Assembly (NCBI RefSeq): GCF_030625865.1
Contig: NZ_DAOUQB010000009.1
Location: forward strand, 1 to 64,000
Source: Anaerotignum sp.
Lineage (GTDB): Bacteria > Bacillota > Clostridia > Lachnospirales > Anaerotignaceae
Reading direction: 5' to 3'
Length of the DNA: 64,000 nt
Part shown: positions 3 to 41,969 of the stretch, in pieces
Position numbering within the stretch: the first letter of the stretch is position 1
Layout: the number at the start of each line of letters is the position of its first letter
Made by a program: the position numbers and the translations under genes
Notes under the pieces: generated by a model
Database searches by the model: none
What the model was told of the DNA's origin: nothing
The model's input: only the letters and a program-made list of their open reading frames with translations

Positions 3-3000
3 AAATTTTTAAGTGCAGACAGTAAAATCAAGGCTGTCAATGACGTAACAGCTGTGATTGAAGGTGCAATGGCTGAGAATGTAAGCGTAGGCTCAATCAT
101 TGACATTGGGGGCGAAAGTGCGAGGTTTATTACTGGATTGAGTGAGATAGATAAATCGCGTATCGAAATCTCCATGAATTCTAATTGTTCTTCGGGAACA
201 GGTTCTTTTCTTGAGGAACAGATGTCTAGGCTGAATTTAAAGCTTACTGATTATACGGAGCTGGCAAAGGAAGCAAAGTCTATTCCCAGAATTGCAGGGC
301 GTTGCAGCGTATTTGCCAAAACGGATATCACCCATCATCAGCAGGAGGGCGTACCCGCTGCGGATATCTTGTTGGGCTTGGCTTATGCCCTTGTCAGAAA
401 CTATAAGGGTACGGTGATGAAAAAACTTCCCGTGAAAAAAACCATTCTTTTTTCCGGCGGTGTTGCCTATAATGGAGCAATTCTCACCGCATTAAAGGAT
501 GTATTGGCACTTTCGGAGGAGGATTTGATTTTCCCTCAGCATTTGGGTGGTGTTGGCGCATTTGGCGCAGCTGCAATCGCAAGGAAGGAGGGCTTATCTA
601 TAAATATAGATCAGCTGATCTCCCTGTCTGAGCGTGCTGACGAAATGATGAGCCAGGACGATGGGATTATCCTTCCGAAGCTGTCTGGGTATGGAATCGG
701 CGATAGCGCTGATAAGCATATCTGCAAGGACATTTCAGGCGAAAAGGAACCGGTTGAATGCTATCTTGGAATAGATATTGGCTCGACCAGTACAAATCTT
801 GTATTAATGAATAAAAACAGAGAAATCATTTGCTGTAAATATTTAAGAACATTAGGCAATCCCTTAAACGCGGTACAAAAGGGATTTCAGGAAATACAGG
901 AAGAATTCGGGGAAAGAATTAAAATCATTGGCACTGGCACAACAGGCTCTGGCAGATACCTCATTGGCAAAGCAATTGGTGCTGATGTTGTGAAGGATGA
1001 AATTACGGCACAGGCAAAGGCGGCAGTACAAATAGACAGTGATGTTGACACTATTTTTGAAATAGGTGGACAGGATTCCAAATTCATCAGCATTGAAAAT
1101 GGCAGCGTTGTAGATTTTCAAATGAATAAAATTTGCGCCGCAGGTACTGGTTCTTTTATTGAGGAGCAGGCGAAAAAGTTCAATATTCCCATTGAGAATT
1201 TCGGTGAGATTGCTCTTGGCAGCGATGACCCTATCAATCTTGGGGAACGATGCACTGTTTTTATTGAATCAAGTATTGCCTCTTGCTTAGCAAAGGGTGC
1301 AAAGCTTGAGAATATCGTTTCCGGCTTATGCTATTCCATTGTGAAGAACTATCTTGACAGAGTTGTAGGTCAAAAGAGAGTCGGGAATAAAATCTTTTTC
1401 CAAGGAGGGCTTGCGTATAATCAAGGCGTAATTAACGCATTCAAGGCAATTACTGGAAAGGAAATACTTGTTCCGCCGTTTTTTAGCGTGACAGGAGCAT
1501 ATGGAGTTGCTGTTTTGACCATGGAAGAGATGAATGGGCAGGAAACTACCTTTAAGGGCTTTCAACTTTCTGCTGACGATTTTGCAATACAAAGCATGGC
1601 AAAAAGCACACAGCCTGACAAGAAGAATGAATTTAACGAAAATGTTGGGAAAATGGTATTTTGCGATTATACGCCTGAAATTTCCAACAAAAAAACGGTT
1701 GGGATTCCAAGAGCATTGTTTACCTATGGAATGTTTTCCATGTTTCATGCATTTTTCAAGGAGCTTGATTTAAATGTGGTTTTGTCAGAGCCTACCGATG
1801 AAAGCATCATAGCCCTTGGACAGGAGTATGCGATGGATGAAACCTGCTATCCCATAAAGTTGATTACTGGCCACGTTGCTTCGCTGATGAAACAAAAGGT
1901 GGATTATATTTTCTTCCCTGACTTAGTGACTGTAGACCATCCCGGTTCCCACAGCAGAAAAAATTACGGCTGTGCCTTTATGCAGCTTGCCTTTAAGGTA
2001 ATGAATCAAGCAATGGAATTGGATAAAAAGGGGATTGCCCTCCTTTCCCCCTCTATGACATTTCATATGGGCAAGGAATCTATTATGAAAAGCTTTCTGA
2101 AGATTGGAGAACAGCTTGGCAAATCTCCTGATCAGACAAGAGGGGCTGTGGAAAAAGGCTTGGAAGCAGCGCTTCGCTTTGAAGACCGTATGGAGGAAAA
2201 CAGTAAAATAGTCACAAGTCAGCTAAAGCCTGATGAAATTGCCTTTGTGCTTGTTTCAAAAATTTATGGCGTGGCTGATCCTGTGCTGAATATGGGGATA
2301 CCGGAGAAGCTTACAGGAATGGGCTATAAGGTGTTACCGTTTTATGATTTGCCGGAAGGAGATATTTCAAAGGAGCATCCTAATATGTTCTGGCCATTCG
2401 GACAACATATTCTGGAGCCTGCACAGCTGATTCGCAAGCACCCTAATTTATATGCGATTTTCCTCACACATCATGGATGCGGCCCGGATTCTATTTTCTC
2501 TCACTACTTTAGAGAAGAAATGAAGGGAAAGCCATATCTGCATATAGAAATTGATGAGCATTCATCTGGTGTTGGCATTATTACCCGCGTAGAGGCTTTT
2601 ATCAATAGTTTGAAAAATATCGAAACAAAGCCTGCACTTACCATGCAGACCTATTTGAATAGCATAGAACATAAAGAGACAAATATATTGGCTTCTCTGA
2701 AAGATATAAAAGAAACAAAAAACGTATATTTGCCGTATCTGTACCCGTATTCTAATATTTTTGGTGAGGTTTTGGCACAAAGAGGGATGAACGCCAAAAC
2801 ACTGCTGGCTTCCAGCAAAGCATCTATAGAAACAGGACGGAAATTCACAATCACAGAGGAATATTTTTCTCTTACCGCTTTATTAGGGAATGTATTTAGT
2901 GTACTCAACGGATTAGACAAAAAGGAAGTGGTACAGTCAGTGTTTTTGATTCCCCAAAATGAAGGAACAGAAACGGATGGGCAGTACAGTCGTCTGCTCC

Positions 3001-35546: not shown

Positions 35547-36064
35547 AAGGGCGTAAAAAGAGTTGATAAAAAATATTAATATCCAGGTATTACTAGGAAA
35601 TTTACTTTCATTGGTCTAAGCATTTTTGGCGGTTATACTAAAGCCGATTTCTCACTAAAAATTGGGGTTATTTATTATTTTTACAATCCTTTTTATTTAT
35701 TGCATAAAAATGTAGGCGGTGCTGAGTACTCAGTGCTGTTTTTTGTTGGGGAAGTATTTTGAAGTAGATGATTACTGCCGATTATTTTAAAGAAGTAAAT
35801 AACTTGAGAATATTTTTAACTTGAGATGTCAGTAACTGTGGAAAGATAACCTCCTGTATGATAAAATAATTTATTACATGCAGGAGGTATTTTTTATGTA
35901 TGGAAAATCTAATAATAATATTCAATTTTGTGGATGAAAAGTTAAATATCATATAAAATCTAAAATACGACAGCCCATCCTTTGAACAACCAACACTCTT
36001 AAAATGATCAAACTGTGTTGGGATAAAATGCTTAATTTGAACAATGTTAGAATCGAGGAAAGAT
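35547..36064. other. 518-bp intergenic region with palindromes, no convincing gene
   Basis: Holds a short palindrome GCTGAGTACTCAGTGC near 35719-35734 and the 12-bp hairpin described separately at 35849. A 13-codon frame from 35896 behind the hairpin (MYGKSNNNIQFCG) is too short to support. Otherwise AT-rich. Confidence 0.5.
35849..35895. terminator. 12-bp hairpin with T-run, terminator-like
   Basis: ACCTCCTGTATG at 35849 pairs with CATGCAGGAGGT at 35877, with one G-U, then ATTTTTT. The right arm contains a perfect AGGAGGT, so folding would hide a ribosome binding site from the 13-codon frame that follows. Confidence 0.5.
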
Positions 36065-37558
36065 ATGCAGATTGTTTATATATATTTGAATGTTGTTTCT
36101 TTAATTATTATAAGTTTATTGGGTATGCTGAGCTTCAAGAATAGAGATGAGCAGTGTTCAAAATATTTTACATATTCAATGATTTTTATGATAATATGGA
36201 CGCTTGGAACAGTTTTTGAATTATCTACCCATAATTTTTATTTGAAGGTGTTTTTTCGAAATGTAGTTCAATTTGGTATGGCCTTTGTTTCTATATCGGA
36301 TTATTGGTTTGTAGTATCTTATACGAAATCTGAAAATAGTGTCCATAGAGCAATCCTGTGTATTTTTATTATTCTAAATATTCTTTCCATGATATTATTG
36401 TTCACTGATCCCATACATAACTTAATGAGATCAAAAATTTATATGTTAGAATCAAATGGTGACTTTGATTTAATTGTTACATCTACCTACCTTGGCGCTT
36501 TCTTTGTCCAAATCCGCTTTATTTTGTTTGGGTTTGCAACGGTGCTTTTATTTATTCATTTAGCTAAAATTTTTAGAAATATGCGAAAACAAGTGATTAT
36601 GATTTCTATGGGGTGCCTACTTGCGTTAGTATTATTAGTTGCCCAGCAATATTGGTTGCAAGATCATGGATTTTCAGTGCCGATGTCAGTTATTATGTGT
36701 ATCCCATACATATTTATAAGCATAGGTGTTTTCAAATATGATTTTTTGTCTGTATCACCATTGGCAAAAGATTGGGTCATCAATTCCCTAGAGGAGGGGA
36801 TTGTTGTACTATCCAAGGAAGGAAAGATTCTGGAAGCCAATACTGCGGCGTCCATATTCTTAGACGATTTTGGGTATATGCTTGATAAAAATGCTTTATA
36901 TAACATTTATAACAGGGTAGAAGATTCTGTTCATCAGTTGAAATTAGAAACAGCATCGGGTATCTATTATTACGAAGTGAAAATTCATCATTTCCTAATG
37001 AAAAATGGCAAAAGAGGAGGTGGTGTGGCTGTTATTAGGAATATAACGGAGCAGATGGTTAGACAACATGAGCTGCAAGAAAAAGCAGAACTTGATGGGC
37101 TAACACAAATTTATAATCGTAAAACCCTTGAAAGAGAATATGGAGCCCTTAAAAATGGTTCCACTAGTATTATGATTATAGATATTGATAAATTTAAACA
37201 GATTAATGATACCTTTGGACATCCTACGGGGGATGCAGTTATCCTTGGTGTTGTAGAGGCAATGAAAAAATGTATAGGTAATACTGATTTAATTGGTCGT
37301 TTAGGTGGAGATGAGTTTTGCATTATTCTTAAGGAGGGTTCTACAGAACGATGTCAAGATATTTCCAACCAGATCTTTGAGAAAATTAAATTCCAACGAT
37401 ATGAGGTGGCTTGTAAATTGCCTAATATTCAAGTAAGTATCGGGGCAGCTACTAATTTGGAAGTAGAAACTATACCCTTTGAGGATGCCTATAAGAAGGC
37501 AGATGACATGCTTTATACGGCGAAACAAAAAGGTGGGAATTGTTGCGTTATACAATAA
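36065..37558 (+). CDS. membrane diguanylate cyclase (7TM-PAS-GGDEF)
   Basis: About 497 residues from ATG 36065, behind GAGG; an ATG at 36044 adds seven residues without a good site. Residues ~1-220 hold seven membrane helices of the type found at the N-terminus of some histidine kinases (with LLFTDPIHNLM). A PAS-like region follows at ~225-320 (NSLEEGIVVLSKEGKILEAN), and the catalytic GGDEF domain at ~330-497 (IDIDKFKQINDTFGHPTGD, GRLGGDEFCIIL). It makes c-di-GMP from two GTP. The inhibitory I-site position upstream of GGDEF reads GNTD instead of RxxD, so product feedback is probably lost. No EAL domain. Confidence 0.92.
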   Translation: MQIVYIYLNVVSLIIISLLGMLSFKNRDEQCSKYFTYSMIFMIIWTLGTVFELSTHNFYLKVFFRNVVQFGMAFVSISDYWFVVSYTKSENSVHRAILCIFIILNILSMILLFTDPIHNLMRSKIYMLESNGDFDLIVTSTYLGAFFVQIRFILFGFATVLLFIHLAKIFRNMRKQVIMISMGCLLALVLLVAQQYWLQDHGFSVPMSVIMCIPYIFISIGVFKYDFLSVSPLAKDWVINSLEEGIVVLSKEGKILEANTAASIFLDDFGYMLDKNALYNIYNRVEDSVHQLKLETASGIYYYEVKIHHFLMKNGKRGGGVAVIRNITEQMVRQHELQEKAELDGLTQIYNRKTLEREYGALKNGSTSIMIIDIDKFKQINDTFGHPTGDAVILGVVEAMKKCIGNTDLIGRLGGDEFCIILKEGSTERCQDISNQIFEKIKFQRYEVACKLPNIQVSIGAATNLEVETIPFEDAYKKADDMLYTAKQKGGNCCVIQ

Positions 37559-37819: not shown

Positions 37820-37848
37820 TTGTAAAAAAGGTTACAATAGAATATAAT
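37820..37848 (+). promoter_or_regulatory. promoter of the hydrogenase-maturation operon
   Basis: TTGTAA at 37820, 17-bp spacer, perfect TATAAT at 37843, which puts the transcript start near 37855 ahead of a structured leader. Confidence 0.7.
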
Positions 37849-37854
37849 AAGATT

Positions 37855-37948
37855 GTTATTACTGACACCGAATACGGGATATAAGGTGAAAGGCTTCGCG
37901 ACAACGTAATTCGTTATGGAATGCTACGCCTTTAGGCGTATTTTTTTT
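37855..37948 (+). promoter_or_regulatory. structured leader RNA with terminator/antiterminator, candidate riboswitch
   Basis: The leader ends in a terminator: TACGCC (37925) and GGCGTA (37935) around TTTA, then eight T. An alternative helix AAAGGC (37889) with GCCTTT (37928) would use the same bases and prevent it, and encloses a small AACG/CGTT hairpin. Upstream, CACC and GGTG can close another stem. Such mutually exclusive folds are the hallmark of an attenuator. I could not match it to a known riboswitch class. Confidence 0.6.
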
Positions 37949-37974
37949 ACTATAAAATATGTGGAGGAATCAGT

Positions 37975-38241
37975 ATGGAAACAAGAGTTGCTATTATAGG
38001 AATCATTGTAGAAGAAATTGATTCTGTTTCAAAATTAAACAGTATTCTCCATGACTACGGAACGTACATCATAGGAAGAATGGGGATTCCCTATAGAGAA
38101 AAAAAAATTAATATTATCAGCGTTGTTGTAGATGCGCCCAATGATATTATAAGTACTTTATCAGGTAAGCTTGGGAGACTGCCAGGTGTAAGCACCAAAA
38201 CTGTATATTCAAAATATCCTACAAAAACAAACGAGGAATAA
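37975..38241 (+). CDS. TM1266-type iron-only hydrogenase system regulator
   Basis: 88 residues, a single ACT-like alpha/beta domain: TRVAIIGIIVEEIDSVSKLN, then YGTYIIGRMGIPYREKKINI and LSGKLGRLPGVSTKTVYS. Proteins of this family are regularly encoded with [FeFe]-hydrogenase maturases and are named as putative regulators; no DNA-binding motif is visible. First gene of the hyd operon, with its stop 1 bp before hydE. Ribosome binding site GTGGAGGAA. Confidence 0.88.
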   Translation: METRVAIIGIIVEEIDSVSKLNSILHDYGTYIIGRMGIPYREKKINIISVVVDAPNDIISTLSGKLGRLPGVSTKTVYSKYPTKTNEE

Positions 38242-38242
38242 A

Positions 38243-39286
38243 ATGAAAGAGCTTATAGATAATTTATATGCAACACAGCAGCTTGAACCCACAGAATTCA
38301 AGGCGCTAATAGAAGGAAGAACTCCAGAGCTTGCAGAATATCTTTTTGATAAAGCCAATCAGATAAAAACAAAGCATTACAGTAATGACATATACATTAG
38401 AGGACTTATTGAATTTACGAATTATTGCAAGAACGATTGCTATTATTGCGGAATTAGGAAAAGCAATACCAATGCACAACGGTATAGGCTAACAGAGGAA
38501 GAGATTCTAAATTGCTGTGAAACAGGATATGCGCTTGGCTTTCGGACCTTTGTGCTTCAAGGTGGGGAAGATCTCTATTTTTCGGATGATAAATTAGTAC
38601 ACATCATTGCTTCCATAAAAAAGCAGTACTCGGATTGTGCCATTACTCTTTCTATTGGAGAACGAAGCTATGAAAGCTATCTGGCATTTTACAATGCCGG
38701 GGCTGAACGATATCTTCTGCGCCATGAAACTGCGGATGAGGAGCATTATAAAAAGCTACATCCCCAAAACCTTACTTTATCCAATAGAAAGGCTTGCCTT
38801 TTTGATTTAAAACAAATTGGCTTTCAAATTGGATGTGGTTTTATGGTGGGTTCCCCATTTCAAACAGTGGACAATCTTGTAGAAGATTTAGTCTTTATAA
38901 AAGAACTACAGCCCCATATGGTTGGAATTGGGCCATTTATTCCCCACCACGAAACGCCATTTGCAAATGAGGCAGGGGGTTCTTTAGAATTAACGCTATT
39001 TATGTTAGGTCTCATAAGGCTCATGGTTCCGGAGGTTCTGCTTCCTTCCACAACGGCTCTTGGAACGATTGATCCATTGGGAAGAGAACAAGGGATTTTA
39101 GCTGGTGCCAATGTTGTTATGCCTAATCTTTCACCGATTTCGGTAAGAAATAAATATATGTTATACGACAATAAAATTTGCACAGGCGATGAAGCCGCAG
39201 AATGCAGATTTTGTATGCAAAAGAGAATGGAAAACATAGGGTATCAGGTTGTGGTATCCCGTGGGGATCATTTTTCTTTGCAATAA
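38243..39286 (+). CDS. hydE: [FeFe]-hydrogenase H-cluster radical SAM maturase HydE
   Basis: 347 residues. The radical-SAM cluster ligands Cys62, Cys66 and Cys69 lie in YCKNDCYYCG. LRHETADEEHYKKLHP and GFMVGSPFQT are typical of HydE, and a C-terminal CxxC (AECRFCMQ) could bind an accessory cluster. HydE acts on the organometallic intermediate made by HydG during assembly of the 2Fe subcluster. It lies between the TM1266-like gene and hydG in one operon with the scaffold hydF at the end. Confidence 0.95.
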   Translation: MKELIDNLYATQQLEPTEFKALIEGRTPELAEYLFDKANQIKTKHYSNDIYIRGLIEFTNYCKNDCYYCGIRKSNTNAQRYRLTEEEILNCCETGYALGFRTFVLQGGEDLYFSDDKLVHIIASIKKQYSDCAITLSIGERSYESYLAFYNAGAERYLLRHETADEEHYKKLHPQNLTLSNRKACLFDLKQIGFQIGCGFMVGSPFQTVDNLVEDLVFIKELQPHMVGIGPFIPHHETPFANEAGGSLELTLFMLGLIRLMVPEVLLPSTTALGTIDPLGREQGILAGANVVMPNLSPISVRNKYMLYDNKICTGDEAAECRFCMQKRMENIGYQVVVSRGDHFSLQ

Positions 39287-39337
39287 ATAAAGCTGAAGGG
39301 AAAGAATATCTGACCCGATTAAGAGAGGAGAAATAAA

Positions 39338-40756
39338 ATGTATCATCCAAAATCAAGGAAAGCAGAGGAATTTATCTGCCACGAAGAAGTGTTGGCAACA
39401 CTGAATTATGCCCAGGAGAACAAAAACAATATAAAGCTTATTGAAAAAATTATTGAAAAAGCCCATCTGAAAAAGGGGCTTACTCACAGGGAAGCGGCAG
39501 TGCTTTTAGACTGCCAAATAGAAGAAAAAAACCAAGAAATTTATGCACTGGCGGAGCAGATTAAAAAAGATTTTTACGGAAACCGTATTGTCATGTTTGC
39601 TCCGTTATATTTGTCCAATTATTGTGTAAACGGATGTGTATATTGTCCCTATCACTTGAAAAACAAACATATTACGAGAAAGAAAATGACGCAAGAAGAA
39701 ATCAGACGGGAAACAATTGCTTTACAGGATATGGGACATAAAAGGCTTGCTTTAGAAGCCGGAGAAGACCCTGTAAATAATCCGATTGAATATATATTGG
39801 AGTCCATAAAAACAATTTATAGTGTGAAACATAAAAATGGTGCAATCAGGCGTGTTAATGTAAACATTGCAGCAACTTCCGTGGAAAATTACAGAAAATT
39901 AAGGGATGCGGGAATTGGAACCTATATTTTATTTCAGGAAACATATCATAAAGAAAGCTATGAAAGACTTCACCCAACAGGTCCAAAGCATAACTATACA
40001 TACCATACGGAAGCCATGGATAGAGCGATGGAAGGTGGAATTGATGATGTTGGGATTGGTGTATTGTTTGGCTTGGAATTATATCGATATGAGTTTGCGG
40101 CGTTACTCATGCATGCAGAACATTTAGAAGCCGTTTTTGGTGTGGGCCCTCATACAATTAGTGTTCCCAGAATCCGCCCGGCAGACGATATAGACCCTTC
40201 TTCTTTTGATAATGGAATTGATGATGATATATTTGCAAAATTAGTAGCTTGTATTAGAATCAGCGTTCCTTACACCGGCATGATTGTATCTACAAGGGAG
40301 AGTAAAGAATGCAGGGAAAGGGTTTTGCATCTTGGGGTATCCCAGATCAGTGGTGGTTCCAAAACAAGTGTAGGTGGCTATGCAGAAGATGAACCTGAGG
40401 AAGAGGATTCTTCTCAATTTGAGCTCAATGATAATAGAACTCTCGATGAAATTGTAAAATGGCTAATGGAACTTGGATATATTCCAAGCTTTTGCACAGC
40501 TTGCTATAGAGAGGGCAGAACCGGTGACCGATTTATGCAACTTTTGAAAAGCGGACAAATCCATAACTGCTGTCACCCCAATGCTTTAATGACTTTAAAG
40601 GAATATCTTGAAGATTATGCTTCTACCGGTACAAAAAACCTAGGGAGTCAATTGATTTTAGACGAAATCCACAACGTTCCAAATGAAAAAGTAAGAAAAA
40701 TTGTTGTGGAGAATCTTGAAAAAATCAGTAGTGGAAACCGTGATTTTAGGTTTTAG
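39338..40756 (+). CDS. hydG: [FeFe]-hydrogenase H-cluster radical SAM maturase HydG
   Basis: 472 residues, the normal length. The radical-SAM cluster motif is Cys96-x3-Cys100-x2-Cys103 (YCVNGCVYCPYH). The C-terminal auxiliary cluster motif CTACYREGRTG with a later Cys in HNCCHPNA is intact. HydG splits tyrosine and builds Fe(CO)(CN)-cysteine units for the H-cluster. It follows hydE by 51 bp and precedes hydF by 10 bp, so all maturases are co-transcribed. Ribosome binding site AGAGGAG. Confidence 0.96.
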   Translation: MYHPKSRKAEEFICHEEVLATLNYAQENKNNIKLIEKIIEKAHLKKGLTHREAAVLLDCQIEEKNQEIYALAEQIKKDFYGNRIVMFAPLYLSNYCVNGCVYCPYHLKNKHITRKKMTQEEIRRETIALQDMGHKRLALEAGEDPVNNPIEYILESIKTIYSVKHKNGAIRRVNVNIAATSVENYRKLRDAGIGTYILFQETYHKESYERLHPTGPKHNYTYHTEAMDRAMEGGIDDVGIGVLFGLELYRYEFAALLMHAEHLEAVFGVGPHTISVPRIRPADDIDPSSFDNGIDDDIFAKLVACIRISVPYTGMIVSTRESKECRERVLHLGVSQISGGSKTSVGGYAEDEPEEEDSSQFELNDNRTLDEIVKWLMELGYIPSFCTACYREGRTGDRFMQLLKSGQIHNCCHPNALMTLKEYLEDYASTGTKNLGSQLILDEIHNVPNEKVRKIVVENLEKISSGNRDFRF

Positions 40757-40766
40757 GAGGATTTAA

Positions 40767-41969
40767 ATGGGATTGAATGAAACACCGGCAGCAAATAGAA
40801 TCCATATCGCTATTTTTGGAAAAAGAAATGTGGGAAAATCCAGTCTTTTCAATGCCATCACAAACCAAGATTTAGCGGTAGTATCTGAAAAGAAAGGAAC
40901 CACAACAGATCCTGTTTATAAATCTATGGAACTCCTCCCCCTTGGACCGATAATGATCATTGATACACCCGGAATTGATGATGAAGGGAAGCTTGGTGCT
41001 TTACGTATAAAAAAGGCACAACAAGTACTGAATAAAACAGATATTGCGCTACTTGTGATGGATTCTAGGGAAGAAAAATCAGCAGAAGATGAAGAACTCG
41101 TTCAGTTATTTCAAGAGAAAGATATTCCGTATATTCTTGTTTATAACAAGGTTGATTTCATTAAATCACAAAAAAGTACCGATGACCAAAGCATTTTTGT
41201 AAGTGCAAAAACAGGAGACCAAATAGAACAGCTAAAAGAAAAAATCGGAAAACTGATTACTTCAGATACTTCGAAATCTCAAATTGTTGGGGATATTCTT
41301 AAACCTTGCGATTTTGCTGTGTTGATAGTACCCATAGATAAAGCTGCACCAAAAGGCAGGCTGATTTTACCACAGCAACAGACAATTCGGGATATATTAG
41401 AGGCGCAAGCAGTTTCTATTGTAGTGAAAGAATCGGAATTTTCGGAAACTTTAAAAAAAATGGGGAGCAAGCCCCAAATTGTGATTACGGATAGCCAAGT
41501 TTTTAGCAAGGTAAATGCTGAAACACCAGAAGATATTTATCTTACATCCTTTTCTATTCTAATGGCTCGATACAAGGGGGTTCTTAAAACTGCTGTAAAA
41601 GGGGCAAGAACCATAGATTTGCTAAATGATGGTGATAAAATTCTTATTTCTGAAGGATGTACCCACCATCGTCAATGCGAGGATATCGGCACGGTAAAGC
41701 TACCTCAATGGATAAGAAACTATACCAAGAAAAATATTGATTTTGAGTTTACTTCGGGTACTGAGTTTCCGGATGATCTAAGCAGCTACCAATTAGTTGT
41801 ACACTGTGGAGGATGTATGTTAAACGATAGAGAGATGAAATATCGGCAAAAATTTTCGGCAGATAGCAGGATTCCCTTTACCAACTATGGCATCCTAATT
41901 GCTTATATGCAAGGGATTTTACAGCGAAGTGTTTCCATGTTCCCCGAAATTCTCGCAGAGATCGTTTAA
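40767..41969 (+). CDS. hydF: [FeFe]-hydrogenase H-cluster maturation GTPase HydF
   Basis: 400 residues. The N-terminal GTPase has G1 GKRNVGKSSLFN, G3 IDTPGIDDEG and G4 YNKVD. The middle is a dimerisation domain, and the C-terminal cluster-binding part has CTHHRQC and HCGGCMLNDRE, the expected Cys/His ligands. HydF is the scaffold on which the 2Fe subcluster is assembled before transfer to HydA. Last gene of the operon, followed by a strong terminator. No hydA is in the window. Confidence 0.96.
   Translation: MGLNETPAANRIHIAIFGKRNVGKSSLFNAITNQDLAVVSEKKGTTTDPVYKSMELLPLGPIMIIDTPGIDDEGKLGALRIKKAQQVLNKTDIALLVMDSREEKSAEDEELVQLFQEKDIPYILVYNKVDFIKSQKSTDDQSIFVSAKTGDQIEQLKEKIGKLITSDTSKSQIVGDILKPCDFAVLIVPIDKAAPKGRLILPQQQTIRDILEAQAVSIVVKESEFSETLKKMGSKPQIVITDSQVFSKVNAETPEDIYLTSFSILMARYKGVLKTAVKGARTIDLLNDGDKILISEGCTHHRQCEDIGTVKLPQWIRNYTKKNIDFEFTSGTEFPDDLSSYQLVVHCGGCMLNDREMKYRQKFSADSRIPFTNYGILIAYMQGILQRSVSMFPEILAEIV

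Follow-up and report, generated by a model that had tools for sequence, protein, structure and literature searches.

The stretch of DNA analysed here (the window) comprises 64,000 nucleotides of an Anaerotignum sp. genome and contains a hydrogenase maturation operon, in which a TM1266-family gene (37975-38241; TIGR03959, PF21699), hydE (38243-39286; TIGR03956), hydG (39338-40756; TIGR03955) and hydF (40767-41969; TIGR03918) share a single direction on the + strand. The operon is preceded by a leader of 94 nt (about 37855 to 37948). Ahead of this leader a sequence scan places a sigma-70-type promoter (37820-37848, +), with boxes TTGTAA (37820-37825) and TATAAT (37843-37848) separated by 17 nt and 10 of 12 matches; since the scan returned 20 promoter-like sites against 14.5±3.8 in shuffles, this promoter is weak evidence alone. 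The leader ends in an intrinsic terminator (37925-37948, +), found by scan, with a stem at 37925-37940 followed by eight T. The left arm of the terminator, GCCTTT (37928-37933), is complementary to AAAGGC (37889-37894, +), a putative antiterminator strand supported by sequence, folding and a permutation test over 80 leaders. A sequence-only reading of this locus had described such a leader with mutually exclusive folds, riboswitch-like or protein-bound, ahead of an operon for H-cluster maturation. The attenuator part of that interpretation stands, and the layout recurs in TM1266 leaders; missing from it were the recognition unit, which is a hairpin at 37862-37892 belonging to a two-fold-symmetric family, a second copy at hydG, and the wider range of genes involved, as the family is not confined to the TM1266 gene. 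A membrane diguanylate cyclase gene (GGDEF; 36044-37558, +) lies directly upstream of the promoter, and no link between it and the leader was found.

Searching the whole window against Rfam 15 gave a TPP riboswitch (RF00059; 24179-24282, +; 65.1 bits) as the sole match at gathering level and none on the leader, where the four matches at E≤10 were all far below gathering; this accords with the sequence-only reading, which named no fitting class. Among 20 relative loci searched at E≤1, the only match was a skipping-rope RNA (RF02924, 72 bits) at 1959-2039 (-) of locus L052, just upstream of the leader there, and the element of that leader, at 1813-1852, was unmatched. The predicted fold of the window leader (-20.3 kcal/mol, z -0.82) was equalled by 36 of 200 shuffles. 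Single-sequence folding is thus ordinary and the window alone could not exclude chance, so that comparison with relatives had to decide.

The shared motif was first read from aligned upstream stretches, and was then represented by two models, R1 (31 rows) and R2 (48 rows). It consists of CUGA-N4-RAAG, a variable apical hairpin and CUGA-N4'-RAAG, in which N4 and N4' are complementary. In the duplex, C and U from one half are paired to the G and A of the opposite half, and the G and A of CUGA lie across from its A and R; this resembles tandem G.A mismatches and occurs at both ends. In 60 matches from named genomes, the C, U, G and A of the first half are kept in 60, 59, 49 and 59 rows, A10, A11 and G12 of the second half in 60, 59 and 60, and U2, G3 and A4 of the second half in 45, 53 and 49, so that the element is nearly two-fold symmetric. 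Beyond the two 12-nt halves little is conserved, and the apical loop is free to vary. In the window, the element (37862-37892, +; matched by R1 and R2) reads CUGA-CACC-GAAU ... UAUAA-GGUG-AAAG, with CUGA at 37862-37865, the 3' AAAG, shared with the antiterminator strand, at 37889-37892, stem P1 formed by CACC/GGUG (37866-37869 with 37885-37888), purine mismatches GA/AA (37870-37871 with 37883-37884) and stem P2 formed by AUA/UAU (37872-37874 with 37880-37882); P1 and P2 covary in relatives. Cells with two-sided changes numbered 38 in alignment A1 (16.8±3.5 when shuffled), 87 at the next stage (33.5±5.2) and 120 at the last stage (41.2±5.9), with none of 500 shuffles as high in any of the three; relatedness can inflate such a shuffle control. 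Sliding the pairing partners by one to three columns left at most 44-52 such cells against the 120 of the last stage. Alignments A2, A3 and A5 were fitted to a model; A1 was not fitted and still passes the covariation test. The sequence-only reading had named a lack of covariation among homologous leaders as grounds for its refutation, and covariation is clearly present. A DNA operator was rejected as an explanation, since a change in one N4 box is matched by the complementary change in the other. As judged from these comparisons of sequence, the leader element is a cis-regulatory RNA family, present across many Clostridia, absent from Rfam and used twice in one operon.

A TIGR03959 search of 58 genomes of the family detected TM1266 in 26, and one of 295 genomes taken from the order detected it in 137. 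Within the genome of the window, R2 gave a single match at E≤0.5, which fell on the window leader (E 5.3e-5), itself one of the 48 training rows; the E-values of both models are rough. The R2 run on the 295 genomes used strict filters and missed the window's own leader, and its counts are therefore lower bounds. Outside the training order, R2 was tested on 80 named TM1266 loci (459,460 bases) and gave 60 matches at E≤1, of which 51 have a printed E≤0.1 and 59 lie on the operon strand; three of the 60 rows of A5 are identical to training rows. By position, 45 matches start at most 320 nt before TM1266, 12 lie after the TM1266 start and three elsewhere. Nine of the 12 precede hydG and one (L271) precedes another open frame; the matches in L287 and L246 are apparently inside hydG. 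A match at E≤0.1 was present in 46 of the 80 loci and absent from 34. Carriers include Mobilitalea sibirica, Lutispora saccharofermentans, Anaerovorax odorimutans, Clostridium frigoris, Propionispira arboris, Loigolactobacillus rennini, Anaerotruncus colihominis and, at E 0.1, Acetobacterium bakii. Tandem matches, the upstream one weak in each case, stand before the second TM1266 copy of Mobilitalea sibirica (L272:2543-2641) and before TM1266 of Anaerotruncus colihominis (L292:2703-2791). Several matches of R1 or R2 were rejected as elements as they fell in repeats or open frames (G028, G030, G291, G068, G203:C59, G232:C9, two in G082, G203:C52, G049:C14 and G189:C145), and no hyd gene was seen downstream of them in the stretches inspected.

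The element is not restricted to TM1266 genes. It precedes hydE in three genomes (G054, G278, G111), a gene resembling hydF after TM1266 in two (G295, G203) and a gene resembling hydG after a TM1266 paralogue in one (G121). In one genus (g3) it precedes an operon for an SsuABC-like importer in four genomes (G008, G009, G012, G015), and in a fifth (G013) an importer gene that diverges from the hyd operon. Control of the TM1266 gene only was accordingly rejected as its role. The importer proteins of G009 match BPD_transp_1, ABC_tran and NMT1, and their nearest families are SsuC and SsuA, below the cut-offs of those families. The fourth gene there, after the importer genes, encodes a protein of 186 residues (L171:3065-3625, +), for which no Pfam or NCBIfam match at E≤0.001 and nothing convincing in the PDB by sequence was found. 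In a further locus (L335, G296:C69), the operon behind the element contains a TrpD-like gene and small genes of lipoprotein-like type, and its last gene is a TM1266 paralogue.

In many operons a compact copy of the element lies between hydE (or TM1266) and hydG, with its 3' RAAG running into the Shine-Dalgarno sequence, as in CUAA-CGGG-AAAG-AAAAG-CUGA-CCCG-AAAG-AAAGGA. Of 55 distinct stretches upstream of hydG, 22 contain a strict element, and none of 11,000 shuffles does, the pattern having been written after some of its members had been seen; the same pattern occurs 15 times in the 80 named loci, always on the operon strand, and not at all in ten shuffled copies. The N4 pairs of the hydG copies co-vary (CGGG/CCCG, CAGG/CCUG, UAGG/CCUA, UUGG/CCAA, UCGG/CCGA, UGGG/CUCA), and 26 of these elements show 14 two-sided changes against 3.3±1.5 when shuffled, their selection by eye raising the share of paired cells. 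The copy in the window (39293-39323, +), assigned from sequence and from covariation in relatives, reads CUGA-AGGG-AAAG, AAUAU, CUGA-CCCG-AUUAAG and lies directly before the hydG Shine-Dalgarno sequence (39324-39330). It is degenerate in its 3' half, forms only three of the four N4 pairs and fails the strict pattern.

Upstream of the operons the element is associated with termination. A script found an intrinsic terminator at most 140 nt after 86 of 105 distinct elements, and a -10-like box 5-35 nt before the element in 41 of these 86 leaders; in a control stretch, 90-120 nt ahead of the element, such a box is present in 22 of the 86. The AAGNNNN strand pairs with the arm of its own terminator at a mean of 4.51, against 4.02±0.09 for permuted partners, a value reached in none of 1000 permutations, and at least six pairs form in 32 of 80 leaders where 22 are expected. 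The partner-swap control is weak (7.16 own, 6.38 swapped), permutation of partners being the stricter test. Permutation hence shows that the element's RAAGG is also the strand able to pair with the left arm of the terminator, an alternative pairing that the sequence-only reading had proposed for the window. In a thermodynamic model of 81 leaders, the mean terminator probability was 0.68 with the element free and 0.92 with it forced, increasing by more than 0.1 in 31 leaders and decreasing in one; RAAG paired with the arm at above 0.3 in 25 of the 81. For the window, the same model gave 0.38 free and 0.97 with the upstream hairpin forced. Taken with the position of the hydG copies, both contexts would read as element held, gene off.

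The TM1266 protein of the window has 88 residues and matched only PF21699/TIGR03959. Its predicted model is one confident domain (pLDDT 92), which matches 2nzc (Z 15.2) and the regulatory domains of NikR (Z about 11.5-13.5). Neither the family search nor the model, which aligns to the C-terminal domain of NikR only, revealed a DNA-binding part. TM1266 itself comes from Thermotoga maritima. In the order-wide run at E≤0.05, R2 matched 49 of 295 genomes, namely 47 of the 137 with TM1266 and 2 of the 158 without; these raw counts keep three genomes whose matches were rejected as elements, the two TM1266-negative ones (G028, G291; inside a repeat or open frame) and one of the 47 (G068; only inside a coding frame). 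A set of 25 genomes with a HydE match of at least 448 bits and no TM1266 match gave no R2 match at E≤0.1 at full sensitivity, and three at E 0.24-0.86 (two in G072, one in G093), two of which lie in coding frames; 4 of 15 hand-picked TM1266-positive comparators, two of them known carriers, matched at E≤0.1. HydG was found in 23 of the 25; a strict element was absent from these 23 hydG loci, taken as whole loci rather than from a predicted hydG frame, and no R2 match in them exceeded 12.8 bits. TM1266 is on another contig than the element in two of the genomes with an element before hydE (G054, G278) and in the four with an element before the importer operon. The element was thus found only where TM1266 is present, a link that is partly ascertained, as the models were trained mostly on elements before TM1266 genes, and that comes from lineages of shared ancestry which are not independent. 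As protein and RNA are both small and symmetric, and occur together even when not adjacent, TM1266 is the first candidate partner of the element.

We tentatively favour a reading in which TM1266 would be an RNA-binding repressor that recognizes the symmetric duplex, promotes termination ahead of the hyd operon and blocks translation of HydG. As the comparisons show, the nascent mRNA folds a short hairpin from two CUGA-N4-RAAG halves, with the N4 boxes paired and a tandem G.A-type mismatch at each end. Pairing and energy models suggest that when this hairpin is held, RAAGG would be tied up, the terminator would form and the operon would be off, and that when it is free, RAAGG could pair with the arm and transcription would continue. 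Since the compact copy sets RAAG against the ribosome-binding site of hydG, holding it would be expected to block HydG translation. The likeliest holder would be TM1266, as a stand-alone NikR-type regulatory domain expected to form a dimer or tetramer, and its binding perhaps follows a signal from the assembly of the H-cluster. Three observations count against a switch operated by TM1266: in the model, the terminator of many leaders is stable whether or not the element forms, 34 of the 80 named TM1266 loci lack a match at E≤0.1, and the hydG copy of the window is degenerate.

The main rival to repression by TM1266 is a direct riboswitch, which we consider possible but doubtful. At its two purine mismatch loops the RNA would bind a small ligand or ion, in one copy or two, that is linked to assembly of the H-cluster (candidates being an Fe-CO/CN species, a radical-SAM by-product, cysteine and a substrate of the SsuABC-like importer); the ligand would hold the element and favour termination and hydG repression, and TM1266 would co-occur through the shared pathway. 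As in any riboswitch, the element is a conserved structured domain with covariation, compact in fold, and its expression platform is shared with that domain, as terminator and antiterminator or as the ribosome site at hydG. That one genus also has it ahead of an importer operon (permease, ATPase and NMT1/SsuA-type binding protein) is consistent with a ligand, two equivalent sites would give cooperative binding, and a P1 of 4 bp with purine mismatches might just as well be where a small molecule binds. However, conservation scarcely extends past the two halves, and a pathway ligand alone would not predict the lack of matches in the 25 HydE-positive, TM1266-negative genomes. The sequence-only reading had put forward SAM, tyrosine, iron and c-di-GMP for probing; nothing in the analysis points to any of these as the signal, and judged by co-occurrence the TM1266 protein is at least as good a candidate. 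It is unlikely that a different RNA-binding protein common to these bacteria reads the element: its symmetry would suit any dimeric protein, and the absence from the TM1266-negative set rests on 25 genomes, but such a protein would have to track TM1266, and the importer and hyd targets are otherwise pathway-specific. An unregulated attenuator, in which hairpin and terminator only set basal read-through, would suit the ordinary fold of the window leader and the leaders that terminate in the model in either state, but is very improbable, as it needs neither conserved CUGA and RAAG bases with freely covarying N4 boxes nor re-use at hydG without a terminator.

A search of the openly accessible literature turned up no description of an RNA element ahead of hyd maturation genes and none of the function of TM1266, and none of six terms looked up in PMC11109978 occurs there. 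According to PMC6239172, on Acetobacterium bakii, attenuation of acetogenesis genes by temperature was not clearly observed, and PMC5651825 places a Moco motif before a hydrogenase cluster of Eubacterium limosum; neither of these is the hyd leader element. The layout of a 5' leader with a conserved fold, a strand shared between element and antiterminator, a terminator and elsewhere a ribosome-site version is like that of terminator-type riboswitches and orphan candidates, but this element has no Rfam match and its conserved bases lie nearly all in a two-fold-symmetric 12-nt duplex. The RAT of LicT/SacY-type systems is a short hairpin with purine internal loops that is bound by a dimeric protein and competes with a terminator, whose left arm it overlaps. 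The present element resembles it in its short hairpin and purine internal loops, its proposed dimeric protein and its competition with a terminator, and differs in that the hairpin lies upstream of the terminator without overlap, holding it would favour termination, and the context is hydrogenase maturation rather than sugar transport. The hyd operon of the window showed no BglG-type gene; there the element ends at 37892 and the terminator starts at 37925, and the RAT reading was not adopted. ANTAR targets have two successive hairpins with conserved hexaloops; an ANTAR target was likewise not adopted, the element being one hairpin with a loop variable in length and sequence. A kink-turn, in which tandem G.A pairs adjoin an asymmetric internal loop that has a 3-nt bulge, was considered and not adopted; tandem G.A-type mismatches are present, and the loops look symmetric in most rows, with extra nucleotides in some. 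Autogenous leader control by ribosomal proteins is described in PMC4538822 for L10(L12)4 on rplJL. Here too the proposal is that an operon-encoded protein attenuates transcription through its own leader and also affects translation, but TM1266 is not a ribosomal protein and its RNA binding is putative. TM1266 has the fold of the C-terminal regulatory domain of NikR, but without the N-terminal ribbon-helix-helix DNA-binding domain.

Assembly of the H-cluster makes CO and cyanide, both produced by the enzyme HydG. To our knowledge, how cells keep this assembly in step with need is not settled, and we know of no label for TM1266 other than 'putative regulator'. With a defined RNA target, both the control of H-cluster assembly and the function of TM1266 can be tested directly. 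Should TM1266 be the partner, a metal-regulator domain that lacks a DNA-binding part would have become an RNA-binding regulator; if it is not, the element would be a riboswitch candidate with a ligand that reports on hydrogenase maturation. Either outcome would help to tune hydrogenase production in anaerobes. We note that in one group of leaders (L088, L094, L105, L112, L079, L092, L095 and L052) the apical hairpin carries a recurrent GAC/CUC step, which, as read from the alignment, places a C.C mismatch between G-C and A-U and the outer stem.
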